From Xiphophorus maculatus (lineage: Eukaryota > Chordata > Actinopteri > Cyprinodontiformes > Poeciliidae): a stretch of 64,000 nucleotides of DNA. The translations under genes were made by a program, and so were the position numbers. The notes under the pieces are model-generated. The model was not told the origin of the DNA. It ran no database searches and was given only the letters and a program-made list of their open reading frames with translations. Location of the stretch: positions 28,745,213 through 28,809,212 of the forward strand of contig NC_036453.1 in the NCBI RefSeq assembly GCF_002775205.1, in the 5' to 3' direction. This document shows, piece by piece, positions 14,739-58,968 of this stretch; position 1 is the first letter of the stretch, and the number at the start of each line of letters is the position of its first letter.

Positions 14739-15992
14739 GGATTTGAGCGTGGCTCAAAGTTTTAGCCACCAATTTTTACTAAAAACTAGATCTGCATCAA
14801 ACTTGGAAATCAAACTTTCAGACTCAAGTGGAGAGGCACAAAATTCAAGCAACTTGTTTCTATTGTCAATGATCATATAGGAGGCCATGCCATCTGCTGG
14901 TGTTGATCTACAGTGTATGTTAATTCCAAAATCAACCATAACATTTTTATTGTGGGGGAACTGTTGATGACCAAATCATGAATGAGCCAATAAGAATTTC
15001 AGTGTGTTCAAGGGCATTCTTTTAATTTCGGTGAAGACGCAGAGAATACAAATAGCTGGTTTGTACTTTTGTTATACATTTACATAAAACTAAACCCCTA
15101 AAACTTGATCTTCATGATTATGACCTTTAGAAGTAAATATGGAGGTATTAACTTGCATTAACACAAAGTAAACCGTAGACCAAAGATTTATTTTTGCAGT
15201 CATGCAGACAAGCATGTTTTTGGCTTGTTTTTCAAATTGTATCATAATTGCTAGATATTCTCACATTAAGCCAGTTCTGAAAAGAAGACATGTCCTTGCA
15301 TTGATTCATTAGAATTTTTTCTAATCAAATAAAGTGCAAGCTAAGGAAACAAACAAAATAATGTTAAAATTATGGACGGCTTTGTAACACAAAACTGAAA
15401 ATTACAAAAGTTTAATCTGTATTTGCCAGTGTCGGACTTAAAAGCCTTTTTACAATCCTTAAATCTTAGGTAATGCTAATACTGCTACAATGTCCCATCC
15501 TCAGTTTGTATGCAGGCTTTCTCAGCTGCATCTCACACTCTGAAAAGAAAATACGAGGAAATGTAAAAAAATTTAAGCAGCTGTACAGCAGCAAATTATT
15601 AGCATGTTTACTCATTCCCTGATAAAAGGCACCCATTTCATTTGAACAGCTAGAACAATAATCGCAGTACAGTAATGCAACTGCTTTGTCCATTTCAAGT
15701 AACAAAAAATGTTTCAGGGTGTTATTATGCAGACTTTGCATAATGGGTGCATCTGAATATTCAGTAAATCCAGACATCCTCCTTAACAATCTTGAACTAA
15801 AAGCCTAATTTCAACTTGGCTAAGGGGCTGATTGAAAACAGCACTCTTATAGGATTTCCAAAATGGAATATTAGCTTAACTTTTAAAATGTGTGCAATTG
15901 TTATTAATTATTTTGCAACACCTGTTTTGGCTCATATTTGGTCATGTTGCTATCCACTCCTGATCTAGTTTAAAAATCTAGCCTCCATCAGG
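14739..15992. other. Convergent spacer between VSP and SMPD1
   Basis: AT-rich sequence between two convergent genes; it should contain the SMPD1 3' UTR on the minus strand. The small open frames (such as 15466-15789) lack family resemblance. I see no transposon ends. Confidence 0.4.
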
Positions 15993-18900: not shown

Positions 18901-21900
18901 GAAGTTAGTTGAATTTTCTCAGCATTAAACATTTCAGTTTTAACCCCTCTCTAAATAACGGCAAATTATGCCAACAGATTTAAAATCGTGAGGATGAGTG
19001 GAGGATGCCTTTGCCATCCTCCACTCAAACTCTTTCTTTGACTAAACTATTTCAGCAGGATTGTTTTACAGCCTTTTTTAAATCACGAGGCACAACTAAA
19101 AACAACCGATGCAGAATGTTGACTGTCAGGTTTTGGGGGGGTTTTAACAGTGGCTTAATTTATCACGCACCTTTTAATGTTGCATATTTCCTCATACGTC
19201 AGGGGAATTCTTGTACGCCGTACAAGAATAATTGGGCATAATTCTATTGCTAAAATCATAGCTATTATTCTTGAAAGGGCAGAATTTCATCCCAGTCTCT
19301 TTTGTGGTGTCTGAACACGACTGTGGAATAATTATCATGATATATTTATACAAGGTTTTGCTATGCTGCAATCTGAGACTAATGCTTTTAAGCCAAGGGT
19401 TTGGAGCATGTTAATTCATCGAAGCTGCAGGAGTCACTGGATTCAATTCAAAGCAACACTGATTTAGCTAGTAGTTATAGGAAGGAGAAGAGGAATGTAG
19501 CTTACACAGACACAGTTATATCTGGCAGTGAAACTACACACAGCAAAAGCCTATGCCTATAGTTGAATGTCTTAACATCGTTTTAGAGTGTGTGAACTCT
19601 GAGCAATATTTACTTGTGGATGAGTTTGGAGATGACTGTGAGCTCTGTCAGCTGCTGGTTTCTGGTCTGAGACCAGACATTGTGTGCTGGTATGTCTCCA
19701 GTCCAGTAGACCCAGTCCCAAGGTCCGACTTTAGCAGCATTTTCCAGGAGGTTCTCCACCGTGCGTAGAGGCAGGTCACACTTGCTGTAGGTTCCCCAGT
19801 AACCAGCCCCTCTCCGCTTCCATTTGGGAACACCTGAGTCTGCCCGACAACAGAGAGGCTCCTTGCAGTCAGCAGCGCTGCCAGTTTCATATTCCTGTCA
19901 GCAAAGAGATTTTAAACGTAAACTGCAGACGTGTCTCAAGACTTTTCTTTGCCGTACTGTACGTTATTTTTCACTGATACTGGAACCCTTTACTGACCAC
20001 GAAAAGATCGAACCCAATCATACTTAGACTTTTTAAATTCTGCACACACTCACCTTGTCCCAGTGGATATCTGTGAGAAACAGCACCCTACTCTGTGGAG
20101 AGCCAGGTTTAGGAGGTGAGGGTGGTGTAACAGGAGGCTTAGGAACCTTTGGCAAAGTGATGTTCCACGGTGCATAAATGTCAAATGTGCCACACGAAGG
20201 CCCCACCAATACCGCACATGCTTCGGTGGGCCACAGCACAGACTGCTGCAAGGCCCTGATGAAGTCGTCCCTGAACAGCTCGGTTATGTTGCGGCACACC
20301 TGCTCATCAGCCAGATGCAAACGGATGCATGCCTCGCTGACTGCATGTGCCACCCGCTCTTCGTTTGCACTGCTCTAATAGAAGCAATAAAGCAGAAAAA
20401 GACTATTAGAGCAGGACGTTGAATGTGAAATACTTCCTGAACAATAAGTGAAGCTTAAATGAGTTTATTCAAATCTATAGTGCATTTAGGGAATTCTTTG
20501 GTTTGGGCTAATAATCACAAATTCTAATGCATGTCTTAGGACAAATTATACCTTTACTGGTAAACTAAAGTAACCCAGCATATATATTTAGAAGTTCCTT
20601 GTTAATTAAGGAAATGAAAAAAACTGTAGAGGCAGAGAACAAAAGCCAAGTGACAGCAGTTTATGTTTAGTACAGACTAAAAAGGTAAAAATATACACAC
20701 ACAATGAAGCAAAAATGTTGTTCTACATCTATCTGGGATGTTAAATTGGTGTTTAATGGTGGAATTTGAACAATTTGTGTAACTCATTCTAAAAATAAGA
20801 ACACAGAAACTGTTTCGCAAGGAGCAGGAGTTCATTGGGAAGTTATTTAGAGTGTACGGATCACTGGAGTGAAAGTTGTTCTGCAATCTTGGTGAACTTG
20901 TTTTATGTGTGTTGTTGTGTGTGTGGACTAATATCTAGGCATAAATGTATATTGTGTGATTATGTAACAATGCCTAATATTGATTTGTAAACTTAATAAT
21001 TAGCACCAAAGATCAAATAAGTGGAAACTTCAACAGTATTTCTATATCATGGACAACTACGATAATACAGGTACTAATTGATCTTCTCACAGTTGCAGCG
21101 GGTATGTAAGTGTTTCAAACTGACCATGCATCAGTTTGTTCCCATCAGTGGGACATTTCTTATCCATTTTGAGAACTGAAGATTTAAAGTTTTCTTACGT
21201 ACGTTACAATGTACGTTGTTTCCGTAACATTTAGCTACGACTTCAAATGCTATAGGAGATCACTCTTAGTTATTTTGCGGTCCTATCAGTTTCCAAATAG
21301 GTATCAGAGCCTATTTAGATGTAAATGCAAAGCTTTGGAAATGACAGTGATATGCAGCTCTTTAAACAAGCAAAAGTGTCTACAGGGATGAAGCAGAAGC
21401 AGGAGCCAGCTCAGACACAAGCAGCAGAATGTATTTAATTAAAATTCAAATATGACTTTTTAATGAACCATTTATTCACATAAATATGATTAACTTAATA
21501 ATATAAGTTAACGAAGACTTTCCTTGCTAAATAGACCACCGAAAGTTGCATTTGTTCAGTCACCACAATCTTTGCTAGTTAGTTATCAGTTTAAAGAGGT
21601 TTTAACTTCCTTCAAGCATATTCTGAGGGTCTATTGCCATCTGTAGCAGTCTGCCAATAAGAAAAGATTTCACCTAGTTAAATATATTACATTTTTACCA
21701 CAATTTAAAGACTAAATAATATCGTAACCCAACATGTTGCAAATGTTAGGTTGTGCCATCCAGCATTAAGTAGATGTATAATTGCAATTTTGTTCCTCTT
21801 TTCAAACCCCGGTGTTCCGTTTGTGTTGCAAGAAAAGCAACTTGTTTGCAGTGTTCAGTGTCACAATAACAGATATAGATTTTCTACTCCACTTTGAGTA

Positions 21901-22136
21901 AGAGGCAGAAGGTTTACCAGAAGTGCGATGTCAAGAATGGTGAAGATCGCTTTGCAAATGGGACAGGTGAGGTTTCTCCAGGGGAAGCCGAGTCCGTGGG
22001 TTTCGAACTGCTCCACCAACACGGTCCTGGTCTGAGCTTGATACTGAGCTGGATGACAGGACCCGAACAGCGGCGACATAAGGAGCAAAGTACAGGTCGT
22101 CAGTCCCAGGAAGGGGCGCAGTGTGGGGAGCCTCAT
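15993..22136 (-). CDS. smpd1: Acid sphingomyelinase (sphingomyelin phosphodiesterase 1)
   Basis: Eight exons: 21918-22136, 20054-20374, 19614-19894, 18398-18571, 17950-18121, 17658-17734, 17190-17335, 15993-16411. They give 602 residues, against about 630 in human. The enzyme hydrolyses sphingomyelin to ceramide and phosphocholine in the lysosome. A signal peptide begins the protein ([19 protein letters not shown]). A saposin-B domain follows ([17 protein letters not shown], Cys58/Cys61, to VGPSCG). Next come a Pro-rich hinge ([12 protein letters not shown]) and a calcineurin-type metallophosphatase domain with its metal ligands: DIH (175-177), [14 protein letters not shown] (287-290), GHIP and GHTHLDEF. 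The C-terminal domain ends in a free Cys, as in the human enzyme. Several N-glycosylation sites occur (NIT, NVT, NST). I chose the Met at 22136 because it directly precedes the signal peptide; an in-frame Met at 22223 would bury it. No break or missing ligand is seen. Confidence 0.95.
19207..19229. repeat. Short perfect hairpin in an SMPD1 intron
   Basis: ATTCTTGTAC and GTACAAGAAT form 10-bp arms around a 3-base loop (GCC). The function is unknown; it may be chance or a small transposon footprint. Confidence 0.6.
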
Positions 22137-22515
22137 TGTTCTGACGGTAGCGTGTCTGTGCTGGAAGAAGCAAATGCAGAAGGGGAGACTTGCTGCTTCA
22201 AGGAAATGACACCAGTCTGACATTCAAACTTGCTAAAGCGATATGAGTCATTCACAACCGCAAACAAAAAATGTAAAGCCAGCTAAGAGCTAACTATTGC
22301 TCATAGAGTACCTCTAAAAAGAGAAAAAGTGCCGCTGTCTTCTCCAGGGACTCCCAGGTGTGGTGAACAAAAGCAACTCCAAGCTCCAGTTCCACTTCCC
22401 CGGGGAAGTCAACTGAGACCAGGTCAGACAAGTCTTTTATACATGATCAGCTGGGAGCAGATCTGCTTGTTCAGATGCGCAACTGTGTGTGTCCTCGCGA
22501 CTGAGGCTGCCCGCT

Positions 22516-24246: not shown

Positions 24247-27200
24247 TCACTTGTCTTGCATCTTTTCCAAAATGGGAACAATCATGTCAAACTTGGGCCT
24301 CTTGGCTGGGTCTTCGTTCATGCAGAGCCTCATCAGCTTGCAGATGTGAGGAGAGATGCCTGGTGGAATGGTTGGCCGGAGTCCCTCCAGAGCAATCTGA
24401 GCAGTGGGAGGAAAATTATGTGCTGTTTAAGTGTCATGTACAGTGCATTGCAAAAATATTTCACACTTGTCACAAAACTTTTAACATCTTGTTACACTAT
24501 GTGTGGCAGAACAATCCCCAGAACCAAACTCAGGGTGGCAGAATCAAGGTGTTGGATGTTTTTCTTCAGCAATAATAGTCAGAGTTTATTGGAAGTTGGC
24601 TGAAGCTAAATACGGGGCAATTCTATAAGAAGCCAATATTGATTCAGACAAGCCCAATACAGCTGATGAAACACCGAACGCTTTCTACAGATAAAAGAAC
24701 ATTTTAAAGACAACGTAGCATTTTTTCAGCTTCACAATTATGCTCTAGTTTGTGTTTGTATAAATGTCTCATTGAAAAACAAGGAAGTTTGTTGTTCCTG
24801 TGAGGTAAAAAATTTTATATTTCAGAGGATGTAAATAATTTTGCAATGCACTCTGAAAAATATAGAGTTTGAGCATTTGGTGTGTTGCTACCTTCATCCC
24901 TATCTCCATGTTTGAGAGATCAGCAAACGGAACCTCTCTGGTAACCAGCTCCCATAGTAACACTGCGAAGCTCCACATGTCAGCAGATCTTCTGTTGATG
25001 TCTTCTGGCTTTTTCTGCAGTGCTGAAAGCGGTAGGAAGGAGAATATGAGAAAAATTAATGGAAAAGAAAGGAGACAGGTCTGGGAAGATCCAATGGGGG
25101 AATAAATACCTTCAGGGGCCATCCAGGCTGGTGAGTACATGCGCCCAGGACACTGGAAGGAGAATTTAGCATCTGCCATGCTTATTCTGGCTGTCATATC
25201 CTCATCAATCTGTAAATTAAACACAATGGGTAAAGACTCATCATACATAAAAGTGCCAAACAACACAGGATTTCCCCTGTTTGCTTATACACTGTGCCTA
25301 CCACAATTATTAGCGCATTTAATGTGTGCAAGCAGCTACACTAATGTTTTTTATGCAGAGCTGCTAATCCCAAAATGCCCCTTTTTTATTTCAGTTGTTC
25401 AATAGAAAGTTTTGGATATTTAATTTTTCCTCACCTCCCACACTGTTCTTTACAAAATCAATGTAATAGTCTTGTATTTCAGTTTCAGTTATTGATGATT
25501 AATGTTGTGACTGAGGATATAAGTAAGTTTAGGTGAGTAGTCATTTTATGTAAGCCATTTCCTGACTTATTATGACAAGTGCCAGAGAGGCAATAGAAAA
25601 TCAGCTGTTGACTGTTTTTGGGGTCATGTCATATGACCCCAAAAACATATGACATCTGGTGCCTTACCATGATATATTTACTATTGAGGTAAAGCCGGGA
25701 AACCATCGGCTCTAAGGTGTGGAGGAACGCCATCCCACTCGCGATGTCCAGGGCAAACTTGACCGCTTGGCTTTGGTCAACCACCAGAGCTGATGAAGAC
25801 AAGGCGAGGGACAAAATGTAAAACAACAAACTAAGTAACTAACAATAAAATTGATATTCAAATGTTATGGATGTCAGTAATGTGTATGCAAACAGGGTTA
25901 TATTTGTATGTAGATGTATCTCAATAAATTGACAAGACGAACAGCAGCTGTACTGTGCGCACCTTGAGCTTTCCTTTGAGTATAAAAAAAATTATATATT
26001 GTTATTTGACTTTTTATTATTTTTCTCTTTGACTATTAACAAAATTGTGGGACAAAAATATATATGTCTTTGTGTCAAACGGTCCTGCACATCTGTGTGC
26101 TTCTGTGGGGTTTTAGTGGGCACATGTACATCTTAAACCTGAATTTTATTGGTTAGTTTACTTTTGTTTATTTGGTGGCTTGGTGCTCGTTCTGTAAGCG
26201 AAATGTGACTGTGCAGTGAAGCTAGCAAAAAATGAGTAAGCAGATTCTTAAACAGCTCAGTCTAGTCAAAACGTTTGCAAAGAAAAAAAAAAAAGTGGAA
26301 ATCAAGCAAAAGTCGCTTCACTGGAAATTTCCGTCTTCCTCCTCCAGTGGGTAGGCTTTTTCATTCCTGTCTGTATTATTTCTACAAAAAAATAGGCTAT
26401 GCAGGCATGTAAGTGTGTGTGCGTCATTGTGCATGTTGGGCCTTGTGTTGATTAGGTACACTGTTTCTCTGTGGCAAGTGCATCATGCTCATGTGCCCTG
26501 TATTTGTGGAAGTTAGGCTTGTGCTTGTTTGGGGATGCATGTTGGGGATGTGGTTGTGTTCATATGGGTCAGGTGCAGTGATGGTGTTGTGCATACTGTC
26601 TGATAAAGTCCTGTTGGTGCCCCGGATGAGGAATAACCTGTATCCAGAATATTTGTGTGTGCTGGCTCTTGAAGCGCTCACCCCGATTTGAATGTAGGGT
26701 TATCACTGTTGTTTGTGCACTTTTTTTCTACCACAGATTTTCCTTCCACTCAACTTTTTTAAAATGTGCATGAACAGAGCACCCTGTGAGCAGACAGCTT
26801 CGTTAGCAGTGACTTTTTGTGCCTTACCCTTCTTGTGGATACTGTCAATGACTGTCTACTAGACACCGCTCAAGTCATCAGTCTTCCACATGATTGTCTA
26901 GTTTCACTTTTTGAATAATCTTGTTTCCCTTTTATATGTTTATGTTCACTACTAAAATACATAAACACTTTGAAGAAATTAATACTTGTTTATATGCAAA
27001 TGGCTGCACAGTGGCTCAGTTGGTAGCACTGTTGCCTTGCAGCAAGAAGGTCCTGGGTTCGATTTCCGTCCGGGGTCTTTCTGCATGGAGTTTGCATGTT
27101 CTCCCTGTGCATGCGTGGGTTCTCTCCGGGTACTCCGGCTTCCTCCCACAGTCCAAAAACATGACTGTTAGGTTAATTGGTCTATCTAAATTCTCCCTAG

Positions 27201-30200
27201 GGGTGAGTGAGTGTGTGTGAATGGTTGTTTGTCCTGTATGTCTTTGTGTTGCCCTGCGACAGACTGGCGACCTGTCCAGGGTGAACCCCGCCTCTCGCCC
27301 GGAACGTAGCTGGAGATAGGCACCAGCAACCCTCCCGACCCCATTAGGGACAAAGGGTGAACAGAAAATGGATGGATGGATGGATATATGCAAATGTAAG
27401 AAAATAGTTTGGTTTGAACTGTGTTCCAGCTAATCTGAGCAGAGGTTTTATAACCTGAGAAAATTAAGACAGCAAATTTCCTTTTATGTACTTGCACGTA
27501 AAAACAAATGACTTACTTGTGCCCTGATGGAGGATGGTGTACAGAGATCCGTATGGCATGTAGTGGGCGATGATGATCGGATGAGGAGAGGGAGGGGACT
27601 GACATGCCCCAAGGACAGGCAGAATATTTGGATGAGAAAAGATTCTGTAATGGTAAAAAGAGAAACAAACAGCTAAAACTCCACTCTGCTGTGTTAACAT
27701 AAAATTATACTTCACTCAAGGAAATAAGAACAAAACTGTAAAAGATATATTTAACAGTACGCTTGTATGATCTGGAGTCCTTTTAAGTTAAGTTTTACAC
27801 CTCATTAGCAGAAACACTTTCATTTTTTGCAATATCTACCCAAGTTAAGCCAAAGTGCTTTTATTTAAACATAAGTTCTCAAAAGAAAGCAAAAGAACTG
27901 AAGCTCACATTAAAGTAAGAACACAGCTGCGCTACTCAGTCTCTCCAGTGGGGTTTCTTTGACTTGGTTAGTTTAAAGGCTTCTCTCATTTTTGTTCTGT
28001 TTTTTTTTTTTTCCTTACAGCCTAATGAGTCTCAAAGATGGGAAACGCTGATTAAACCCAGTCCGGATGGTGAAAAGTAAAACATGCATTTTATGTTATG
28101 CATTGCTAATTGAATGCAGTGTTCTTTGCTTTCAGATGCAAGCAAGCCGCACAAACAGCCGAGAATATGGTTTATAGACGTGTTTCGGGGTTGAGCAAGC
28201 TGAGTCAGAATGGTTTAGTGTCAGCACACTAAAAGTTTAAGTTATGTTTAAATGTCATGATAACAAATCCATGCAAAAAACGCACAAAAGAAATCCAGAC
28301 ATCACAATTAGTGAGGTCAAAGAAAGTGTCAAAGATGTGTGTTTAGCCTTTTTTTGTTGCACAAACATTCTGCAACTGAACTGGAGTGAACGTCGACCAC
28401 TGACTCCAAATAAAACCGTTTTTACATAAACATGATTGTGAGTTCAAATGTTCACACCCTCCACATTTTGTATGCATACTTTTCCTTTCATAGATTTACA
28501 TTCATTCATTATTCACCATAAATATAACATTTATTTTCTTCCATTACTGATTTTGTTCTTACAAAGTGGAATAATTACAAAACAGGCAAGTTCAATTATT
28601 TTTCTAAACTAGATTTTTGTACACAAGCTTTATTGTTCAAATGCAAATATTCATCCAAACTGGTTAAATGTCATGTAGTGTCACAGATCTGCCTTTTATG
28701 CCTAGTCCTTACAGTTTCCAATGGTTTAATGTCATCCTGCTTTATCCATTCCAAAATCCATCTAGATGTGTGTTTGGGGTGATTGTCCAACTGGAACATA
28801 CAACTATGTTGAGGTTTTGATCTTCTAAGTGTTGATTTCAGGTGATATTCAAGAATTTGATGAAGTCTTCCTTCTTTTTTATTCCATTCAATGAAATAGC
28901 ACCACAGCATCATATTACCACCATTGTGCTTGACAGTTGGAGAAGCATTCTTAGGTTTGAAACCACTATCATGTCTCTCAATCACAACTACCGTTTAAAC
29001 TTTGTCTCATTTGACCATATAACATTTTAACTTTTTTGTAGTTTAAGTTTAAAATAAACGCTTACCAATTCTGCCAAGAGGAGTGAACAAACCCAGGATG
29101 ATTGGTTTGGCTTACTGGTGTGTAGTTTCTCTGCTATATATTTGAATCTGTATGTATAATTCTGGCCATATGTGAAATAGAGAAAACCACACTGGAATTT
29201 GCACAAATTCACACTTGTGCAACCAATTCAAAAATGACTGAAGTCATTTTGTTTTTGTTGTTTGCGACTGTTCAAGCAAATAATTAAAATTCCTAGATTA
29301 ATTGAAAATGAATGGCCGGTGTACTGTATGTAAACTTGTGACCATAAATTTATCTGATAATAAACACCAACAGTCTAGTTGTACGATAAATAACCTGAGT
29401 TTGGGATGCTCCTCGTTAAAGTCTCTGCTCTTCCTGGTGGTCCAGTCTCTCACGTGCAGCACCTTCACCACAATCTCATCCCCTTGCCACCGGCCCTGCC
29501 ACAACTAAAAGAAGAGCACACACTCCAGTGATCAGCCGGAGGAGCTAAAAAAAAATAAAAAAATACTGTCAATCAGCATTAAAAGCAGCTGACCTCTCCG
29601 GACTGGTTCTCATTGATCTTTGCCAGAAGCGAGAGCTGCTTAAAATCAATACCGGCTTGCTTATTGAGGGTGCCATTACCTGTGAGATGAAAAACATGAA
29701 TAAAAAAAGCATGAATCCTAATTTTGCATCATATTTTGATCTTATTTTATTAGACAAATCCTACTCACGGGGTCGCGTTCTCATTGTACCCTTCCAGAAC
29801 GTTTCCTTGTATGGGATTTTGGCCATGTTCTGGCCCATTTTCTCTGCCTTTTCTAAAATAAGCAAAAAATAAAACATTTAAAATATAAGCGTAATGTTCT
29901 TAATTTGCCTTTAAAGTTTCTTTATCTTAGTGAAAATCTGCTGCAATGTTTAAAAGTCTATAAATAAAAAATTCTGACCTTGCAGCAGCTGTTTTAGGTG
30001 AGGCTTGGCCTTATCCAGAGGTGTCTGCCCATACCTGTTACATATACACACCTGGGCACCATGGGTTACCAAGTCCTAAAAAGAGATACAACCCTAGAAT
30101 TACAACAAAATTAAGAATATACTGATAAAGGAAACAGGTCTTGCTGCAGTAGCAGTTTCTGCCCAGAAGAGGGCGGTTTTTCACCAACAGATGGAATCCA

Positions 30201-33200
30201 AAAAGAGATGTGAAAAGTGTGTGTTGGTGTGCAGTGATGCACCTCTGCAACTTCATCGTGGCCCCAGAAGCAGGCGTAGTGCAGCGGGGTGTTCCCGTGC
30301 TCGTTGACTGTATTGGGGTCCGCTTTGCACTGAATCAGCTGTCATCATAAAACAGAGCAACAAAAACACATGAGAGAGAGAGAGCATATCAGCATATAAG
30401 CTGTTTAAGAAAGCGAACCTTAGCCACAATGTCCCTGTGTCCGTGGCTTGCAGCCAGATGTAGAGGTGTGTCATCTCCACGGTTCATCACGTTGATTCGA
30501 GCCCCTCTCATGATGAGCATGTCAACAACGCCACTCCTCCCTTCCCTGCATGCCCAGTGGAGGGGGCTGAAGCCATGGTCGTCTCTAACACACAAGACAA
30601 ATGGAAAATATGAGAGGAAATGGAGTCGGGATGCCGCATCTTTACATTTATCTGGTCATCAAAACATCCAAACACAAAGAGACGCAAGTAAAACGCTTAC
30701 TGCAGTATGGAGAGAGTCTCCATTCAGGTAGTGACATTTCCAAATGAGTAGTAGGAACAACTAATTTTTAAAATAAATTAGGTATATGAAAGGTTAATGC
30801 TTTCGCAGATAAAGAGATAAGAAGTTCTGAACTTTTACAAGAGGGAAAATAACACTTTCAGACAGACATATGATCATTCCAGTCTACCATAATGAAGAGA
30901 AAAAATCATCAAGGTTCACCTCACCTCACAAGTGTAAATAATGTAATAACTTTAAAAATATTAAAAATAATAGGAATAAATTTGACTGTCTCCTTTTAAA
31001 GAGCAGAGCAATACTCTGGCAAAACTTAAACAGATCAACGTCTAGCAGAAAAACAGACGAGTACAAAGAAAACTTCAAAAAGGTAATTTTTTTGAAAAGA
31101 CGTCTCCCAAAGCAAAGGCATTGTGGTGGGATGATCATATTAAATATTTACTAATGATGTGGAAGAAGACAGAAGTAGCATTGTGAGTTCTGATGCATGG
31201 AAAACGAGAAACACTGCTCTCTCAAATGTGATTGTACTGTATTAGTAAGTGGCCTAAAAAAAGAACAAAAAATGTTGTTTTTCCTTTTAGGTAAAAAAAA
31301 AAAAAGCACATGCTTCTATGCCTGAACTTGTCTTTTGCTCTCATCTTAATTGAAATATGCTTCACTTGTTGTGGAACAAGCTGAAAGCAAGACACCCCAC
31401 ATACCAACCAGAATCAGCCCTTAAAAGCACAGCTCTACATCCCAAAAATTTTTACCTCTAAGCTCTTCCTAAGATTTTGATATGTATTTCTTCAAATGTC
31501 ACTGCTGTAAAAATACTGTGAGAAAATATGTGTACTAACTTGACCCTATATGAAAAAGTATTTGCTCCCTAAACCTAATAACTCTTTGTGGCATCCTTAG
31601 GAGCAACACCGGTCATCAAGCATTGGTAATAACTGTCAGTGAGTCTTTCACATCGCTGTGGTGAATATTTGGCCACTCTGCAGAACTGTTTTAATTCAGT
31701 CATATTGGAGGATTTCCCAGCATGAACAGACAGCGTAAGGTCACGCCACAGCATCTCAATCAGATTTAAGTCAAGATTTTGACTAGACCATTGCAGAATT
31801 GTAATTAAATTTTTTTTAGCTATTCAGATGGGAACTTATGCTTTAAACACAGTATTTCAGGTGACAAATAATAATAATAATAATAATAATAACATAATTT
31901 TGGTTTAAATTTATATAAAACAAAATTATATATTGTCTATATATTATATATTGTCTATTCTCTAATAGACAAGAGAATTAATTTTTATAAATATATTTTT
32001 ACTGCTAACTTGATGCTGAGTAAATTACATTCAGCCTTCAGCCTGTAGTAAACACATTTTAACAAAACCATAATAACATTGATGACTGTGTAAGAACGAG
32101 GAATTATATGTTGCTTACTTCAAGTTGTCAGACAGATTCTTTTGGCAATAATCATACCTAGATGGTGCCAGGGAAATTAAGTATAAAAGCCTTCCTGGAT
32201 GTATTTTTAATACGTATAATATCCTGAATATGGCTAAAATGAAAAGGTAGACTATATCTTATGGAGCGTCCTGCTAACAAAACATTCTCTGTGAGGTTTG
32301 CTCTTTGGCACAGGTTCACGCACCCACCTCCTACTAATCTTTATTTAGATTTCAGCACATGCTTCCTCTCTGTGCCTGCAGCCTCTTCCCATCTGATGAT
32401 TGGCCCGGTGATAAATACTTCTACACAGGCTGGAATGCCTGCTAACATGTCCAAGGACGCACACAGTCACGGTGTATACATGACCACTTCCAGTCTGCGA
32501 GGAGCCAGGCTGTCACCTCCACTGTGGGCCCAACGGGTCAGCTCATTACACCGACTAACCCAGAGTCTCCTGGCTGCTGGGGTTTCTCACAATGCCCTGC
32601 GAAGCCACAAACTCTGCTGTTAGTTTAACAATAAACTTCGAGGGGGTCTTTCAGCTCACACTGAAGTGAAAGAGCAGAGAGGTTCATTCTCTGTCAGACC
32701 TGATGTAGCAGCACTGTGGACAGACAACTCATAGACTAAACCACCCTGTGGGCTAAAAAAAGTAACAAGGGGGAAAAAAAATGCAAGAATGACAGAGTGG
32801 AAAATACTCTGAGCTACACATTCCTTCTAAGTCTGCCTTTTTTTCATGTGTTTTCCTGTGTCACTCGGTTCTAGAGGCAGAGTAGTTATTTAATGCTTCG
32901 CTGGCTGCTCTTAGGCGCCTCTTTCGGTTCCAACTTATTATTCCAACAACACATAAAGCGTTTATTCAGCGCTCTGGGTGCTCTGAGCAGGACAGAGGCG
33001 GCCGCGCCACATAGTTGAGCTTCCTTAGAGTAACAGCCAAAGAAGGCCTTCATCATAATGACTGCTTATTCATTTGTTTATGTGTGACTCTAGGGGAGCT
33101 GCCTAAGAAGTTCTGTCAGCGATGGGCTTGGCCCTGTATGGAGCTAAGAAGAGGAAATGGACTTGGCTGCTGCGTGGTTGGCCAGCAGCTCCGCAAACTG

Positions 33201-38433: not shown

Positions 38434-39324
38434 TCATGGTGATGCTTTAGGGCTGCCAAAGTCATTCTGGATTCCAGATACAGCAGGCTGAGGAAATCCT
38501 AATCCAGTTTCTTTAAGCTCTGAGACATTTACACCATCAGTCCTGGGTGTAAGTGGTGCGCTGGCTGATAAACCTATTCCTGTGGCTACTGTATTAGCTG
38601 GAATTGCTAATGCTGCTGGTTTTAAGGGTGAGTCATGGACTTCTGATGCTACTTCAGTCACTGAAGAGGTTATCTGAGTAGGTGGAGATGAACTTATAGA
38701 TGTCTGAATTGATGGTGTGGCTTCGGCTCCAGTCCCAATGGTTCCAGGTGTAGCTGCAGCCTCGGCTGCCTTTGCATTCTCTGCAGCCTTGCTCTCCATC
38801 TCCTCCATCCTTCGCTGCACCATCCGAGGCATCAGCTGCACATACGTGCCCATCAAGCGGTGGTTTGTGCGAATCAGCTTCCCAGCACAGTTGTCCACAC
38901 AGCGCTCCTTGACAGACAGACAGTAGGAATGTTAATCACAACAAAATATTACAGTACGGATATGTTATCTATGTCACATTATAGATGATGTGATTCATAG
39001 ATAATCAAAGTATTTTCTATAAATATATACCAACTCTACGTTTGTAACAAGATGATGCATGTTACAAACATAGCATGTGTCAGTGTACTTAGATAACGGG
39101 GTTATGATTATGTCTGCTCCCAGTACCTCGTCCATTGTGAGGTTCCTGTAGTTGAAGTTGCTTGTGCAGCGCTGGAAGCAGATTTCAGTCATGCGGTTGT
39201 AAACCAAAAGGAAATCCCGCAGCTGGAAGAAATGCAGTCATTCAGAATCACCGTCCACATCTCTATTTACAAATCGGCGAGAGGAAAATCAACTTACGTT
39301 TCTCAGCTGCTGGTCAGGATCCAT
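38434..39324 (-). CDS. timm10b: Mitochondrial import inner membrane chaperone subunit Tim10B
   Basis: Three exons: 39298-39324, 39127-39222, 38434-38907. They give 198 residues. The first 80 or so residues match the small Tim family, with [19 protein letters not shown] and a twin CX3C pair: Cys24/Cys28 (CFQRC) and Cys44/Cys48 (CVDNC), followed by [20 protein letters not shown]. By family knowledge this protein sits on the TIM22 complex and hands carrier proteins from the intermembrane-space chaperones to the insertion channel. The start MDPDQQLRN precedes a good donor. Residues from about 75 onward form a low-complexity Ala/Glu then Ser/Thr/Pro tail that makes it nearly twice the human length (about 103). 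The tail is in frame with the conserved domain in the same exon, so it is not a misjoined exon. Confidence 0.93.
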
Positions 39325-45252: not shown

Positions 45253-48200
45253 TTAGTCACAATCATGGCTAAAGCTGTCAGGTACTTGATCTGAGCAGCT
45301 CTGAGGATTTTCTACCTCTAAAAGCTCTATACATATATTCCCATTGCGATCATCACAATGATCTTTTCTGTCCTCACTTTCTTGATCTTCATCCCAATCT
45401 ATTCTCCGTCCTTCCTCACTCTCTCGTAAGCCATCCCATCCCACATTGTCCTTGTCCATGTTGATGCCTCTCTCTCTTTCCATCTCCTCTGCCTCCTTGG
45501 CTATCTGTAGACTGTTGAGATAGATGCTGCTGTGTGAGACCATGACACTGGTGTCTCTGGATGGCAGGTGAGCGTCCACTTCCATGTCCACCTCTAAGAA
45601 AGCGTTCAAGGGTGACGTCGGGAGGTCTGCCAGCGGATCGTGCTTCTTGTGGCGTCCTTGTGCCTGGCCTTGCATGTGTCTGTTTTTCTTGCGATTCTTT
45701 GCAATCTTCAGATCCAGTGAGGCGTAATTCAGGTCAGAGTCTGGAGGCTGGTTTTGGAGAGAACAGATGAACATGTGAGACAGTTTCTTTCTCCTTTTTG
45801 CTTCAGACACACTTCTATTTTTGTAGAGCTTGTCTAGTTTATTTTTAGAACAATTTCTTCTCAACAGTGTTCACTGGTTTGCAGTTCCGCTGACCACAAT
45901 GTGTGTCAGAGATGCTAGCTGCCTTCCGTTCTGAAACGAAATCTGTCAGCATGGTCTCAAATGATCTGCGTGACATGTCCAACAAATATAATGCAATGAT
46001 AAACTTATTCTTGTGTGAACAGAAGGACAAATATACAACCAGCTTTCAGGTTTCTGCTATATAAAAGCATTACCACAGCATGGCTGCCACCCCCATGGTT
46101 CACAGCAGGGAGAGTGTTTTATGTGCAGGGTTAGGTTTCCTTCAAATATTTTACAAACAGTTTAATTTTGGTCTCATCCGCAGAGCATTGTTTTTCACAT
46201 AATTTGCCTCGACCAGAAATTATGTGGTCGAGGCAATTTTAATTGCAACTGCGAAGCTCTTGAAAATAATAATCAATGTGATTTATTTCAAAGGGCATTT
46301 CTGAGTGAAATACATGCAAATCAGCTGTATGATTATAACAAAATTTAAGAGCTGAATCAATCATAAGCAGAGCCCCAACCCTATTAGGACTCTTGGTGAA
46401 GATGTGTTAGAAATGTAAAAAAATATTTTAGTGCAGTAATAAACTTTTCTCACAGCATATGCTGTGTGTTTTTATTTTGTCACAGTTTTATTTGTTTTTA
46501 AGTTTCTGGGGAAGTTTAAATGAGTAGCAACTTTCTTGTAACCATTTCTTGATTTATGAAGCTCAACACTTATTAACATATTATTATACCATGTTCTCTT
46601 GGTTTTTTTTCTCTCCCAATGTTGACTAGTGGCTCAGAAAAATGGAGCTGAGCATCTTGTCCAATTTATACCATTTTGAGATTTAAATAAATGTATTTAT
46701 TGTTTTCTTATTTTGTAAAAACTGTGAAAGGTGCTAGTAATTTGATATAAGACATACTTATTTAAAATAGGACAAAATAAATAATTTTAAATATACTTAG
46801 ATTTACAGATTGGTTTTTGTTAAAGAAAATTGTGAGATTATGCTTCTGAAATAAGATTTATTTATTAGGTTTTATTATAGGTGCCGAAGAATGTGGAAGG
46901 CCCGTAATTCAAAATGTACAGTTTGCTAATTTGATTAAACATGACATTAAGTCTTCATTGTAACAGTTGAACTAATACAGTGTAAGAAGAAAACTTTCAC
47001 ACTGAAAATGTTAGTTTACAGTACATTTTTGTTTATAGTTTCTGAACCAATGATTTCATTTCCACTGAGGGCAAATTAAGTCATATTTTGTTTTCTCAGT
47101 AAAGCAAAGATCACCACTAAGGTGAACTTCAACAGCATTTAAATGCTGGCTTAACTTGTTAGCAGAACAGAATAAAATATTCATCACGTCTCAGCAAAAT
47201 GCCACTGGTGAAGAAACTACAAAGGTACGGAGCCATCGGTCACCTTGAGGCTCCTTTGAGTGCAAGAAACTCTGATGAGGCAAGTTAAAGTCGGTCTTTT
47301 CATGAAAGCGCATCTGTAGCAAAAGCAGCATTTAAGTCAAAGCAGTGCCAGCCGTGTGCTAATGCTGCTCACTTGAATTAACAAAGCCCCAACAAATTGA
47401 AAGCAACATCAAAAATTAAAACCACCCCTAAAAAACCAAAATGAAACTGGAAGATAAAAGTCAAATGGCTTTATATTTCTGACTCTTTGCAGCCTTATTT
47501 TGACTTCTCAAATTGTGACTATATTAAATTTTACTGATAAAAGTCAATTAGGATTATGTCATATAACTGAAATGGATGACTTTTGAATTATAAAAAAAAA
47601 GAAACTGATTTCTTAAACTACAGTTACCTTAAGACAATCTCTATTGCGCTGCATGGACATCGTCTCGTAGAAAACCTCTGAAGAACCTGCCGTAACACAC
47701 ATTTGTCAATTACTTGACTGTATAAATATATATATATATACATTTGTTTTTTTCTATTTTACAAAACTGATAAAGAATTCTAAATTCCAATTTGTGTTTT
47801 AAAGACCCTAACAGACCCTATTCACTGGATGTACATCTCAGAAAAGGAATTCAAGGTGCAACTTCTTTCTGATTTTGGAGTGCAAAATGTTTAAAATAAT
47901 GAATGTGAAGAAGAAGGTAAATTTTGTTCAAAAACAGGAGAACCATTCACAGCTTTTTTTTTTTAAACCATTCTTTTTTCTTCTCGGTTGAGTCATACAA
48001 TGATAAACAGATTCACAGATTTCCCCTTTTTTTAATAGGTGTCAGAAAGCAGATTTGTGCTTACCACGTCTTTCTGTGCTGATGTTGCCATAGATTGGAT
48101 TTTCCTGTCGCTCATGATGATTGTGGGGATTTTCCTGCTGCTCTTGATGTCTGACGTTACCAATATATTGCCCTTCGATTTGTGATAGGCTGCAATGAGA

Positions 48201-49126
48201 TGTGAAAAGACGAGTTTTACACTTTGTTTTAAATAGGAATTTAATGCATTTTGAATTGCATTGTATTTTGCGCAATTAAGTCTAATTCCAAAACGAATTG
48301 AAAATAAACATACGTTTCTTCTTCCGAACTGTGTGGATGGCAGCAGTTATGTGGTTCTGAGTAAACAAAAAGGCAACAATTTGTAACAAATTTTAAACAG
48401 AAAAAATCACAAAAACATGTGGGAAAGGGAACCTTTTATTTACCTTTACATGAAATGTGTCTTTGTCTTAAGCAGAAGATGATATTCAGACACACAGAGA
48501 TTAGCAAGGCCAGAGATACCACCACCAGGGCTATATGTTCTAAACAGCAAACATGACATGACAAAAAAAACCCAACAACTTTAATCTGTGTTGAAATTAA
48601 GATTGAAATATTTGTAAATTTACGTCTTCTTTACATCTTTTTGAAGTGTCATATTGAAAACATACTTTTAAGCTTGTGACAAACACCCAACAACTGACAA
48701 TTGCAGTCTGAGATTCTTCATGACAAATTGAAAACAATTTGTCGTTTTAGCCACTGAAAGAAATAATGCAGTGCTGAACAATAGTTATTTCTGTACCCCT
48801 GTTTTTTTTGTGTTCCTTTATCATTTGTCTCCTTATTTACCACAAAAAAAAAAAAACAAGGAGACAAGTTAGGATTCTTTCTTTAAAAATCTGATTTTTG
48901 TTGTGACTTTGTGCATATTCCTGTGTAAGAAACACAAAGACGTTTCATTGCCACTATTTTCTTTCCTGTGACCTTTTCTCTTGACACGTTTTTTGCTCAA
49001 TTCGTGATCTGGCCTTTGCGACATTCAGATTGACGGTAAAATGTCCTTGAATTATGTATATATTATAAAACGTATTGTGTCTTTCTGCTGTACAAATTTA
49101 AAACAAATGTTCTTACCTGATCCCAT
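45253..49126 (-). CDS. trat1: TRAT1-like T-cell transmembrane adaptor
   Basis: Six exons: 49117-49126, 48444-48539, 48314-48356, 48065-48189, 47628-47686, 45253-45747. They give 275 residues, against about 186 in human. There is a five-residue outside segment, one transmembrane helix (about 6-27), a cysteine group just inside (Cys34, Cys40, Cys41; possible palmitoylation), then a long cytoplasmic tail with phosphotyrosine motifs. These are Tyr58 (YIGN), Tyr83 (ENPIYGNI), Tyr98 (FYETM, a PI3-kinase p85-type YxxM), Tyr119 (LNYASLD) and Tyr187 (SIYLNS, Grb2-type YxN). Human TRAT1 has the same order of PIYGN, YxxM and CYASLD followed by a basic run. That order plus the CD96 neighbour is my basis. 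In mammals TRAT1 associates with the TCR-CD3 complex and recruits PI3-kinase. The extended acidic C-terminus is additional. An alternative is another TRAP-family adaptor (SIT1, LAX1). Confidence 0.75.
46074..46200 (-). pseudogene. Tc1-like transposase relic in the TRAT1-like gene
   Basis: The minus strand gives fragments reading DEMRPKLNCL, then KEPNPAHKTLSLL and TMGVAAMLW, spaced as in the mid-part of Tc1 transposases (DETKxxLFG, then VKHGGGSVMVW) with stops between. It is a small fossil in the last intron. Confidence 0.55.
46204..46236. repeat. 12-bp perfect inverted repeat
   Basis: TTGCCTCGACCA (46204-46215) and TGGTCGAGGCAA (46225-46236) flank a 9-base loop immediately next to the Tc1 relic. 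It may be a remnant of the element or an independent hairpin. Confidence 0.8.
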
Positions 49127-51363: not shown

Positions 51364-51964
51364 GTTTATCAGCGGGAGCGGGAGGTCGACAGGCGGATTG
51401 GTGCAGCGTCTGCCGTTAAGCGGGCGTTGTACCGGTCCGTCGTGGTGAAGAAAGAGCTGAGCCAAAAAGCGAAGCTCTCGATTTACCGGTCGATCTACGT
51501 TCCCACCCTCATCTATGGTCATGAGCTTTGGGTCATGACCGAAAGAACGAGATCGCGGATACAAGCGGCCGAAATGAGTTTTCTCCGTAGGGTGGCTGGG
51601 CTCTCCCTTAGAGATAGGGTGAGAAGCTCAGTCATCCGGGAGGGACTCAGAGTAGAGCCGCTGCTCCTTCACATCGAGAGGAGCCAGTTGAGGTGGCTTG
51701 GGCATCTGGTCAGAATGCCTCCTGGACGCCTCCCTGGTGAGGTGTTCCGGGCACGTCCCACCGGGAGGAGGCCCCGGGGAAGACCCAGGACACGCTGGAG
51801 GGACTATGTCTCTCGGCTGGCCTGGGAACGCCTCGGGATTCCCCCGGAAGAGCTGGAAGAAGTGGCCGGGGAGAGGGAAGTCTGGGCCTCCCTTCTGAAG
51901 CTGCTACCCCCGCGACCCGACCTCGGATAAGCGGAAGAAGATGGATGGATGGATGGATGGATGG
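51364..51964 (+). mobile_element. 5'-truncated LINE with open RT C-terminal frame and 12-bp TSD
   Basis: AAACTCGATAAA flanks the element at 51352-51363 and 51965-51976, a perfect 12-bp duplication. The sense frame is open from the left edge to the stop at 51930. It encodes the C-terminal part of a non-LTR retrotransposon polyprotein: YRSIYVPTLIYGHELWVMTE, RWLGHLVRMPPGRLPGEVFR and RGRPRTRWRDYVSRLAWERL, the region after the reverse transcriptase core. It ends GGATAAGCGGAAGAAGATGG, then (GGAT)n. The intact frame and perfect duplication suggest a recent insertion. I do not assign the LINE clade with certainty. Confidence 0.9.
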
Positions 51965-52740: not shown

Positions 52741-55700
52741 TCATACAAAAATTGGTCTCGTAGGGGCTGATAAAGAGTTGCACCTTGAAGTGGGGTAAAG
52801 CTGCGTCTCGCTTCGTCTTGCAGCAGTGTACTTGACAGGAGGTGGGGGAGGCTTGAACGAGGGTGGTAGGTCCATGCTGCAGGAGTGTGAGAGCAAAAGT
52901 ATTGATTGCCACCATTGGTGGACATTAAAATATGCACGAGTTACAGTTCAAAGCATGAGAGATGTTTGCATTTTTCATGTCTGTTAAATCAGTTTGGCTA
53001 CAGGGAACTGGCAAAAGACAAACATTTTAGTTTTACCTCTTTTTTATGAGTTGTTTCCTGTAAAGAATTGCAACCACGAGAATCAATAGCAGCAACAGAA
53101 CGATGATGAACACCAACAGGATATGACGCCGTTCGGTTTCTAAGGAGTAGATTGCATAAATAAGAATTGGTTATTTTGAGGATACAGGCAGCTACAGAGA
53201 AATTCCTGACATATTGATCATCTTGCCTCCAGATTCCACTCTTAATAAATGCAACACTATATTACAAAACTTTTAGCCTTGAGGCTGAAAAGTGTTACTT
53301 GTAATTCCCGTCCCTCGGTTGTCCATTAATTTTGGATGGTCCGTCTAATGAGTATTTCACCTGACAAGTAATCAAACATGAGGCTAAGAAAGTTAGAGTT
53401 TATAAAGATCCCATATTTGAGGAATTTGTGGCTTTTTGGAGTTTATTTTTTGTGCGTGTGATTTTGCTTCAAGCATGTCTTGTTCTTAAAATGTTTTTAT
53501 GGATTACCTTCTGACCCTTTGACCTGGCCTGGATTACAGCAAATCAATGTCTCCAAAGGCAAACAGAAGAATTCAAACTTTTTAAAAACAATAGCTTGTT
53601 TCAAATAGAAAGAAAATGTAGCTACCAGATGGAGACTTGCAATAAAATGATAATAATAAATGACTCCTTTTAGTATTAAAGTTAAATAAGCAAGATTGAT
53701 TGAGTATTACCTGTCTTTGTGCTGGTAATAGGGACAGTTGAAGTTGTTCCAGTACTTTCTATGCTTCCTGCTATCCCGGACTCCGTGGTGCTCATTGAGA
53801 AAATGTTCTCTGTGGGCTGTCTGTTAAATCTGGATTCATTCTTCGTGACATCACTAGCCGTTCTCTGTGTTGGTGTGAGCTCTGTCACGTCATTATTCAA
53901 CATGCTGGAGTTGAGTAGGAGATGGGTGATGGTTTGGGTGTCAGGGGATGATGGGACACTGACAGATGTTAAAGTTGCCGGAGGGGTTACATGCCCTGAA
54001 GCAGGGACTCTAACAGTGCTGGAGTATGGTTGAGTGGTCCATTGTGTGTCTGTTGAAAGTGTGGTGGTTAATGATATTGCAGCGCTGGTGTGCAATGAAT
54101 TAGTTGGATGCTGAGTTGACTCTGTTGGACCTGAAAGTGGGAAAACAAGAAATAAAAATCAAAATCAATGGCTTAGATAAATTAGGTTCTGTTTGTTACA
54201 TGACATAGGCTTATTAACTGCAGTAATAACCTATGAACCATGTGCAAAAAATGCAATTTAGCTAGGCCACTTTACCTAACATGCTTGTTTTTTTTCTGTA
54301 AGAGGAAACTGGAGTACCATGAAAAACCAAAGTAGGGATATTGCTACAAAGTCACCAATTTAATGAAATCAAATGTTCACTGTGGTCAAACTGTCTTTCA
54401 GGTGAGGGGATTGTTGCAAAGTCAGTTACTTGATTCTTACAGGTGAACTTCCACAAAAAAAATAAAACATGCAAATAAAAAAAAGGCTTTTTTCAAATAC
54501 TTAAAAAAAAAAAAAAAGATGTCTTAGTTATTAACAGAATCACCAAAGATAAATTTGCCTTCCAAACAATTCATGTTAAAAATAGCTTTTTGCAATTAAG
54601 GCTTTGCCTTTTTGATCAGAGTCGAGGAACATTTGATATTAATTTGTGAATTCTCCCTTTCCCAAGGTATAAATACACTATAACATAGAGAAAGTTCTTG
54701 TAGCCACTTTTTAAGATTGGAAAGACAAAAGGATTTGCCATTTAAGGAAGAAGATGGATGCTGATCCTCTCAGTTCAGAAATTTCATACAAAAACTATAC
54801 TTACTTGCCAAAACAAGTTTAGTCAGAGCAAATAAAAACACATTTTGAAGGAGGAATATTTCTTTAAGAGTGAATACAATGTTTAACAATGAAATTTGGC
54901 TTTGTCCAGAGGCAACATAATTATTATTTGGGGGGGGTCCATTGAAGGTCGCGACTTAGCATCTTTTGTTTCAATAGTCCACACATTAAAATGTACAAAA
55001 AAATCCAGACTGTGAATAACTTCACGCTTGGTGAGACTTTTTAAGGTTGTGCTAAAATCTTCTAACAAACAAACATGACATAACCCATAATCGCATGTTT
55101 ACTAATGATCGATGTTTATCTGTTGCGGTGGTTAGTTGGAAAACTGAGCAGTTTGGTATAGCAGTCTCCTTTGAAGCACCATTCAGTTTGTTTTAGCTGC
55201 TTCTTGCTGTACTTCTCTACTCTGACCAATAGACTGTGCTCTCGCATCACTCCGTTTCTCTGTTTATTTCTGTGGTTTGAACATGGAGCTGAAGGAGAGG
55301 AAAGAACTTTTGACACCTAGATGGTTTACCTGTAGTTATTTATGAAACATGTATATGGACTGACATGTAGACATTATTTTCTCACTTGACTACAGCCAAC
55401 TCACAGTAGTTGTAAAATTGTATTGTTAAAAGACACAGATGGATTTGGGGATGAATTAAATCCCGTGAGTTCTGTATCACATGAACTCAGTTTAATTTTC
55501 ACGCATATCTCTTTGAACAACTGATTTGCAGAAAAAACAGTTGGGTTCTGTTTTTTGTTTTATTTTTTTAAATTCTCAATCTATTCACAGTTACTTCCTC
55601 ATGACCTGCATGACAGCTTTAAATCCTTTGAATCACTATCATCCCTTTCAGCTAATTAAAATTAAAAATGAGTAAGCTACAGCATAATAATGGAAGTTCA

Positions 55701-58700
55701 AGTATCAGCTTTTTGATCCAGTACAGCTTATTAAGACATTCAATCTCTTTGGCCCAGAGTCAGATTGTTAATCCAGTCCTGAGGATCTGACGAAATTGAG
55801 TATGACACAAAGAAGCAGTTAGGAGCAAAGAAATGGGGAGGCTCACCTGTCCTTAAAATGGTGGTTGTAGTCAGCACAGAGATAATAAAATCTTTATGCA
55901 GACTTTTGTCTCCTGTGTTGACTGTCAGGTTGTAAATTCCTGCATGGGCTTCTGTCACCTCCCAGAGCTCCAGGGATTCATTGTCTGACACAAACTTGTT
56001 GTTCTATGCCAGAAATAGATAGCTTAGAACATACAAATCTTGCTGTGAAAGTAGTTTTGCATTTACACTTAATACCAGATCATTTTACACAGTACATTAT
56101 ACAAAGCAACACATAAGGCTGGACAAAAAATCAATAACAATCTATATCACATTAGGCACGTTATCAAGATCAACCGAAAATACGTCAGATAGATTGTTTG
56201 ATCATTTCACTGAACATCAACCCAGAACTGCATAGCATTCTGGGGAACATAGACGGAGAAAGGCTTTGGCCACTCAACCTCTCAAGGTCAGCTAAGCCAG
56301 GTGGTTGACATCAACTACGTCACTCACTCTGTGGTGTAAGCTAACAACAACCTGTTGCATAATTTGCTCAGCAGTCATTTAAGGTTTTGCCACCATGCCT
56401 CATAACTGCTTAAGAAAATGTCTTCCCAAAATGGTATAATGGCTGGAATTTCCCATGGCACTTATGTTTGGCAGAGTGCCCTCTCTAGGTTGAGGACTAA
56501 ATCCTGCCCCAAATGCAGGAGTTTAAGTATATCTGGGTCTTGTTCATGAATGAGGGGAAAATGGAGCAAGAGATCAATAGATAGATAGGTGCGGTGTCTG
56601 CAGTGATGCTAGTGCTGTACCAGTCTGTTGTGGTGAAAAGAGAGCTGAGTCAAAAGTTGAAGCTTTTGCCCTACTGGCCGGTCTATGTTCATCTATGGTC
56701 ACAAGCTCTGGGTAGTAACTAAAAAACAAGAGTGCGAATAAAAGCGGTCAATAAGTTTCCTCTGTTGGGCATCCGGGCTGTCGTTCAGAGAAAGGGTAAG
56801 AAGCTGGTCATCCAGGAGGACCAGCGGCTCAGAGTGGACCCACCTCTCCTCCATATCAAGAGGAGCCAGTTGCAGAGGATTGGGCATCTGGTTAGGATGC
56901 TTCCAGGACGCATCCCTGTTGAGGTGTTCCGAGCACGTACCAAGGGAAGAGCCAGGACACGCTTGAGGGAATACGTTTCTCAGCAGGCTTGGGAATGCCT
57001 GGGAATTCTCCCAGAGGAGCTGACCCAAGTGGCTGGGGAGAGGGAAGTTTAGACCTCTCTGCTTACACTGCTGCCCCTGCGACCTGAACCGGATTTCTTT
57101 TTTCTCTTCTCTTGTTGACCCAAAGCCCTTTAACTTTGGGTCAACAAGTTTTTCCATCATTAAGCTGTTCCTGTTTTCTACCAGGTACAAAAAATGGTGC
57201 CATAATGCAATTTAAAAATGTTGCTTGCCTAACTGAATGTTGTCAGCCAGTGTGATCTTTTCCATTAGTCACTTCCATCATACAACTGGACAAAAAGTCA
57301 AAAACTGCTTCCTTTTTTAATTCAAAATTCAAATCTAAAATGTAGGCACAGGGTGTTAAGCTTTAAGATAATATAAGAAAGCTCAGCTGGAGACTGCAAC
57401 TCCAGGGCAAAGTTTTGGGAAAATAGGCAGCACTTTTCCCACGCCTAAATGGTTGGCATGGGAGGTTCAAGTGTTCCTCAAACATGTATGACACAGTTGA
57501 GGCAACACTCTAGGTATGTTTTTTTGATAATGGAATAACATTAAAACATGATATAAAGCTAAAAAAAAGTACATTTTACATTACATCCCTCCAACCCCTG
57601 TTTAAACGTTCTTGCAGTTATCCCTTTGCACTGACTTTGATGCGAAGTACATAATGGTTTGGAGAAAAGCTGATATAAAAGTATTATGTGGTTGCAGCTT
57701 TTTTGTAGAAAATGAAATTTTCCCTTTTTCTAACATGTTCTACAAAACTCTTCCAACAAATTTGTACCTAATTTTTATTCACTGCACTTACACTTCACTT
57801 CAGTGGAAATTCAGACAAGAACAGCCATGAAGGGATTATGAATTACTTTCCATTCAGGGTAACATAAAGAAATTACATCTTTTTTGTTTTGTTTAGTTCT
57901 TTTTTATATCTATACATTTCACTTACCTTGGTCCACTTGTACTGTGCTTTGGAGTTGACTGTGCATTTAACTGTAGCGTTGTCTCCAATGTGAACCTCAA
58001 CAAGTTTATCAGTATTGCACAATAGTTTGAGCTCATCTGGGGAGAAAATTTTAGATAAATATGAAATCTGTACAAATCAACAATGAAGCAAAAGCCATAA
58101 AATGATTTGTTGCTTCAGTCCAAGCCCACATAAAAACTGACAATGTGATCTGTCCTACACTAACATAGTTATAGATTCCTCATAAAAACTGTTATAGTGT
58201 CTGGGAAACAATAACTTTTTATACAGAAATAATTTACATTGTGCTGAGATACAAGCATTTTGCTTCTTTTTTTTCTTTTTTTTTTTTTTTACAAATAAGC
58301 AAGCAGGCTTACCTTTCACTGTTAACTTTGTTTTATTCCTAAAAGAACCTAAAAGAAATGTCGAGATCTCACAGATATAGATTCCACTGTTCCATTTGTT
58401 CACCCAAGGAAGGTGTAGATATGAACCAATTAACTTGTTTGCATAATTTTTCTTCTGTTGGATGGTCACGTTAGGCCAATACTGGTGAGGTCCATAATTG
58501 AGGTCATACACAGCAAGGTTTGTTCCTTCACTTTTCATCCATTTAATTCCGACAATCATGTGATCAGCACCATCTTTCACGAAGCAAGGTAAGGTAATGT
58601 TCTGACCCACCTCAGCTTCCATTGTTTCATTAAAAAACAGCTCAACATTCTTGGCTCCTGTTAAGTAGATCAGATAATGTTGAAAGTAAAAAGAAAAAGA

Positions 58701-58968
58701 AAAGTGAGGAGACAAAAATCTATTGCATTTTAAAGCAAAAAAGGCTGCTGGGCACTATGATGTAGACAAATAAAGTACATTGCTAGCGATGTAACCTGTG
58801 ACTCCAGACATCAACAGACATTTTAAATCAAATGGTTAACATCTTACCATTGCTGGTATATTAACTAGAGCACATGTGCAAGTGCACTGGATTACCTTGG
58901 AGAAAAGAAGCAAGGAGCAGAAGAGAGTAGGCTGTCCCCAGTATACATCCAGCCATGTTTGTACTCAT
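52741..58968 (-). CDS. cd96: CD96 (TACTILE)-like immunoglobulin receptor
   Basis: Seven exons: 58896-58968, 58313-58657, 57927-58036, 55847-56003, 53711-54130, 53037-53139, 52741-52876. They give 447 residues. A signal peptide comes first (1 to about 24; an alternative Met is at residue 5). An Ig V domain follows with Cys49, Trp64 and Cys120 (SGIYICEIS). A second Ig-like domain is split over two exons (Cys164, Trp174, but Leu202 where the paired Cys is expected). Next are a Ser/Thr/Pro-rich stalk of about 140 residues, a transmembrane helix (375-395), and a short tail. The tail reads LPPSFKPPPPPVKYT, nearly the human CD96 tail PPPFKPPPPPIKYT. That match, the V-domain plus mucin-like stalk layout and the TRAT1 neighbour identify it. 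Mammalian CD96 on T/NK cells binds the nectin-like PVR (CD155). The third Ig domain of human CD96 is absent and no YxxM or ITIM is visible in the tail. Confidence 0.8.
56440..57095 (+). mobile_element. Older, broken LINE copy in a CD96-like intron
   Basis: The same LINE family as at 51364 but diverged and starting further 5'. Stretches such as LLHIKRSQLQRIGHLVRMLP and RTRLREYVSQQAWECLGILP are recognisable among stops and frame changes. It lies in the intron between the two exons of the second Ig domain, antisense to the gene. The (GGAT)n tail is not preserved and I found no target-site duplication. Confidence 0.8.

Follow-up and report, generated by a model that had tools for sequence, protein, structure and literature searches.

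On the minus strand of the window, a stretch of 64,000 nucleotides of Xiphophorus maculatus DNA (contig NC_036453.1), lies a gene coding for 447 residues which, to judge from its sequence, is probably the fish orthologue of CD96. This is the best reading because of the cytoplasmic tail, the stalk, a second immunoglobulin (Ig) domain (D2) spread over two exons and the TRAT1-like gene lying next to it. Taking structure and setting together, we infer with considerable confidence an intact orthologue, a type I lymphocyte receptor that would recognize a ligand of the nectin/PVR family and carry an SH3 docking tail.

Gene model and neighbourhood

The gene extends over positions 52741-58968. Its seven exons join in a single frame, all six introns are bordered by GT and AG, and the intron phases (1,1,0,1,1,2) are mutually consistent. 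The coding sequence of 1344 nt specifies 447 residues and a stop, free of internal stops and frameshifts across its 447 codons. Re-joining the minus-strand exons thus gave the length and exon count of the initial annotation, and each of the parts that it had listed was recovered: signal peptide, V domain, second Ig-like domain, Thr/Ser stalk, transmembrane helix and tail. The stalk comprises 23 serines, 33 threonines and 11 prolines (67/140 residues, 48%), and a single strong hydrophobic helix starts at about residue 375 (Kyte-Doolittle mean of 3.9 over 19 residues). A repeat, LINE-like by eye, is present in two copies that are 79-80% identical, one downstream of the gene (51641-51920) and the other within intron 3 (56823-57087); Pfam gave no match for the open frames of either copy.

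Table. Coordinates of the CD96-like gene and of its neighbours in the window
Feature	Positions	Strand	Remarks
CD96-like exon 1	58896..58968	-	start codon and signal peptide; hydrophobic N-terminus
CD96-like exon 2	58313..58657	-	V-set domain (D1), residues 25-139; AX6G lock 73-80, FG loop 124-128
CD96-like exon 3	57927..58036	-	first half of D2; phase-0 donor at end
CD96-like exon 4	55847..56003	-	second half of D2; GIYNL (198-202) at F-strand cysteine position, not YxC
CD96-like exon 5	53711..54130	-	stalk rich in Ser/Thr/Pro, 140 residues
CD96-like exon 6	53037..53139	-	transmembrane helix and beginning of tail
CD96-like exon 7	52741..52876	-	cytoplasmic tail and stop codon
Tail motif LPPSFKPPPPPVKYT with PxxPxK (PPPPVK)	52825..52869	-	residues 406-420
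TRAT1/SIT-family adaptor gene, three exons (48539-48444, 48356-48314, 48189-48065)	48065..48539	-	membrane helix then PIYGN; one frame
TRAT1-like last exon(s)	45253..45870	-	NYASLDLK... to stop; open frame, acceptor site not fixed
TIMM10B-like exons	38437-39237	-	Tim10/DDP zinc finger 2e-5 at 38998-39237
ILK (integrin-linked kinase)-like exons	24772-30655	-	ankyrin repeats 5.1e-17; kinase domain piece 3.2e-6
Tc1-type transposase-like fragment	28674-28994	-	by eye only
SMPD1 (acid sphingomyelinase)-like exons	15968-22223	-	ASMase_C 1.5e-8 at 15996-16451; rest by eye

The minus strand also carries, about 4 kb downstream, a TRAT1/SIT-like gene (45253-48539), of which neither the start codon nor a middle part was found. 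Taken singly, its pieces match the Pfam SIT model (PF15330) at 0.029 and 0.11, both weak; joined, they reach 0.001 in two stretches, with 20.0 bits, below the cut-off of 27.6, whereas human TRAT1 matches the same model at 2.6e-35. The neighbour aligns to TRAT1 with a score of 57 and to SIT1 with a score of 39, and the TRAT1 score is not significant alone, since the maximum of 500 TRAT1 shuffles is 61. Two lymphocyte signalling genes, CD96-like and TRAT1/SIT-family, stand side by side. The wider neighbourhood is mixed, because the SMPD1-, ILK- and TIMM10B-like genes point to human 11p15.4; the TIMM10B-like gene has an Ala/Ser/Thr-rich C-terminal extension in its following exon. In human, TRAT1 and CD96 are both located at 3q13. 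Linkage of TRAT1 to NECTIN3 has been reported from gar to human, in a passage that does not name CD96; the TRAT1-like neighbour agrees with this linkage, the SMPD1-, ILK- and TIMM10B-like genes do not. Human ZBED2 sits within intron 5 of CD96 on chromosome 3 (PMC3606216).

A proline-rich tail motif shared with human and mouse CD96

The fish tail carries LPPSFKPPPPPVKYT (residues 406-420), in which PPPPVK (413-418) forms a PxxPxK motif. The core of the human CD96 tail, RPPPFKPPPPPIK, is in print as common to human and mouse (PMC5966540). Against the human tail the 53 residues of the fish tail give a local score of 90, when 5000 shuffles of the human tail reach 56 at most. By contrast, the scores of the other tails are attained by 60 (CD3E), 728 (FASLG), 926 (CD2), 2107 (TIGIT) and 2872 (CD226) of 5000 shuffles. 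Identity to human CD96 is 13/18 in the core and still 8/13 outside its run of five prolines, so that the match is more than low-complexity proline. A pattern of F[KR], four or more prolines, up to two further residues and [KR]Y has a single occurrence across all six frames of the window and none in 200 shuffled windows, a weak control since shuffling kept only base composition. In a single BLASTP comparison with composition adjustment, human CD96 also gave a low-scoring colinear piece across stalk, transmembrane segment and tail (E=0.30). The tail had been claimed to be more conserved than the ectodomain: the core (13/18), set against the V domain (22/110), both relative to human CD96, supports this in part.

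The fish tail has no ITIM of the form [SIVL]xYxx[IVL], the corresponding position reading VKYTAA where human CD96 reads IKYTCI; it has no YXXM, and the transmembrane cysteine of CX8RK is absent, no cysteine being present between residues 164 and 435. In mouse CD96 YXXM is likewise missing (PMC5966540). The motifs of the mammalian tail are themselves described as of unclear functionality, the ITIM being putative (PMC12412668), and several overlapping candidate motifs are recorded in this tail (PMC12412668; PMC5966540). The idea that the proline motif is an SH3 ligand is plausible in view of PxxPxK at 413-418, but it is not new, having been published for human and mouse (PMC5966540).

The ectodomain and the competing readings

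The first Ig domain (D1) is a V-set domain (residues 35-138, Pfam 1.7e-12 with the whole protein). With the AX6G lock and the FG key defined after PMC5966540 and PMC12066663, the lock reads AVYDLNYG (73-80), to be compared with AVYHPQYG in human CD96 (6arq alignment), and the FG loop reads TFLLG (124-128), with its proline missing. That key is closer to the nectin TFP than to (L/T)YP, given as the form of CD96, CD226 and TIGIT (PMC5966540); inspection by eye showed no (V/I)(S/T)Q motif. Among PDB sequences the fish ectodomain matched JAML (6.6e-6), nectin-4 (7.7e-6), CD226 (6.7e-5) and nectin-3 (0.00012), with neurofascin in between, and no CD96 chain figured among the 54 sequences found up to E=10. 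The pairwise D1 scores are nectin-4 95, nectin-3 91, nectin-1 84, JAML 67 and nectin-2 63, then mouse CD96 at 50, level with PVR, the control CAR D1 at 45 and human CD96 at 40, this last score falling inside its 400 shuffles (maximum 46). The BLASTP match to human CD96 is weak: its best piece has 17 residues at E=0.004 and is out of register, with fish D1 lying over human D2, and a D1-D2 piece stands at 0.049, for a single comparison. A single-sequence AlphaFold2 model of D1 had a mean pLDDT of 35.7. As expected, tblastn found no viral relatives of the domain.

In a maximum-likelihood tree of 12 D1 domains the fish domain stands beside nectin-3 with low support (64/39), and when it is constrained to join human and mouse CD96 the tree is worse by 1.0 log unit, a difference that does not lead to rejection (p-AU 0.274). 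Identity to the fish domain is 22/110 for human CD96, 14/102 for CD226 and 21/105 for TIGIT. Human and mouse CD96 share just 66/116 positions in D1, so that the domain is weak evidence either way: at the distance of a fish, a clear signal of orthology in its sequence is not to be expected, and it cannot decide the matter. As proof of CD96 it was dropped, nectins being favoured in the pairwise scores and the tree having low support. Better matches to nectins, which the initial annotation had named as telling against CD96, were thus obtained in the pairwise comparison, and for D1 only, while the tree leaves a CD96 grouping unrejected.

D2 covers residues 152-207 approximately (Ig_2 at 1.6e-11 with the whole protein, 9.2e-9 with the domain alone) and a phase-0 intron separates its exon 3 part from its exon 4 part. 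In human CD96 variant 1, exon 4 is said to give D2 16 residues (PMC9866520); a second account has about 18 residues and mentions a truncated exon 4 (PMC9263721). Since exon 4 contributes residues within D2, the human domain also needs more than one exon. In a panel of five domains, the highest local score is with human CD96 D2 (46, reached by 9/1000 shuffles), followed by PVR D3 (33, reached by 36/1000), a similarity that is no more than suggestive. The fish domain has Cys164 and an extra Cys146 and is missing its F-strand cysteine, so that any disulphide in it (55847-58036) would be non-canonical. Human and mouse CD96 have three Ig domains (PMC5966540). A third domain was sought in the longer minus-strand open frames inside intron 4: none of seven frames of at least 45 codons, nor one of 41, matched a Pfam Ig model, and the sole Pfam match among the first six was to a WAK model (0.17). 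With no sign of a third Ig domain there, the claim that the domain order is that of human CD96 is not supported.

Two other explanations have to be weighed. The protein could belong elsewhere in the nectin/PVR group, as a nectin-like immune receptor peculiar to fish that gained its proline tail independently or by shuffling. Early vertebrates do have nectin-family proteins with no apparent human counterpart (PMC7286890), and the V domain, closest to nectins in sequence and placed beside nectin-3 at low support, goes the same way, sharing with nectin-4, -3 and -1 and PVR the AX6G lock and a TFxxG-like FG loop. Yet only two Ig domains and a mucin-like stalk set it apart from nectins, which have three Ig domains, as does a short proline-rich tail where nectins have a long tail of their own. 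The nectin-like reading would also leave aside the tail residues identical to CD96 beyond the five prolines, a D2 made from two exons as human CD96 D2 is made from more than one, the adjoining TRAT1-like gene and the p-AU value for a CD96 grouping, and we hold it to be unlikely. It is far less probable still that the reading frame is a relic of a gene no longer expressed. The missing F-strand cysteine of D2 and the repeat copy in intron 3, LINE-like by eye, might hint at decay, but the uninterrupted codons and six regular introns argue otherwise, and in tilapia (PMC8818700) and salmon (PMC8415484) transcripts bearing the name cd96 are reported with T cells.

CD96 being preferred, its likenesses and differences can be set out. 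Human and mouse CD96 have, as the fish protein has, a V-type D1 with the AX6G lock, a long Ser/Thr/Pro stalk, one transmembrane helix and a short tail with a tandem proline motif ending in KYT. The fish protein is unlike CD96 in having no third (C-like) Ig domain found, no ITIM, YXXM or CX8RK cysteine, a different FG key and a D2 deprived of its F-strand cysteine; within the proline motif, human PPPPIK is replaced by PPPPVK. CD226 and TIGIT belong to the same receptor group, and the fish ectodomain matches CD226 in the PDB, but their tails resemble that of the fish no more than shuffles do, and their D1 identities are those given above.

Proposed signalling and evolution of the CD96 tail

We predict that the product is a membrane glycoprotein of type I, present on T and NK-like lymphocytes, whose V domain would contact a nectin/PVR-type ligand of another cell through the CC'C''FG face, with D2 and the stalk, presumably O-glycosylated, acting as a spacer that holds it outward. 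The tail may serve chiefly to dock an SH3-domain protein on its proline-rich PPPPVK, which a tyrosine follows; this emphasis on docking stems from the absence of the ITIM, YXXM and transmembrane cysteine named in mammals. Tyrosine 419, next to PPPPVK, could regulate the interaction. Because the fish receptor keeps the docking site without these three features, we tentatively suggest that the ancestral signalling part of CD96 may have been this SH3 docking site rather than an ITIM, and that tyrosine-based inhibitory or PI3K readings may be later mammalian additions onto a receptor with an adhesive or co-stimulatory role that diverged from a nectin-like ancestor; the ancestor is proposed because the V domain is still nectin-like, with its TFxxG FG loop. 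As a whole, this scenario is possible, rather than probable.

Much of the background is already in print. It is published that human and mouse have the proline tandem in common, that this tandem can be read as an SH3 site and that CD96 has diverged between the two species (PMC5966540), and there is disagreement over whether CD96 acts on lymphocytes as an inhibitor or as a stimulator (PMC12412668). CD96 had been described as little known outside mammals, which fits the functional work found, but the name cd96 is used in fish transcriptomics, for a marker of T cells in Nile tilapia (PMC8818700), and also in Atlantic salmon (PMC8415484) and a cichlid (PMC8256507). In the CD96 literature searched, leaving out the salmon papers PMC7593592 and PMC8763012, no characterization of a fish CD96 protein was found; the fish experiment described in PMC12412668 concerns medaka T cells expressing human CD96. 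What is new here is one fish sequence keeping the proline motif without the tyrosine-based motifs, together with its TRAT1-like neighbour. This makes a useful comparison but does not amount to a new kind of system, and for the window itself what it offers in practice is a clean gene model with a TRAT1-like neighbour. Should the proline motif be all that fish CD96 retains, comparing vertebrates would amount to a natural dissection of the tail, and the SH3 interaction would outrank the ITIM as the function that has been conserved.
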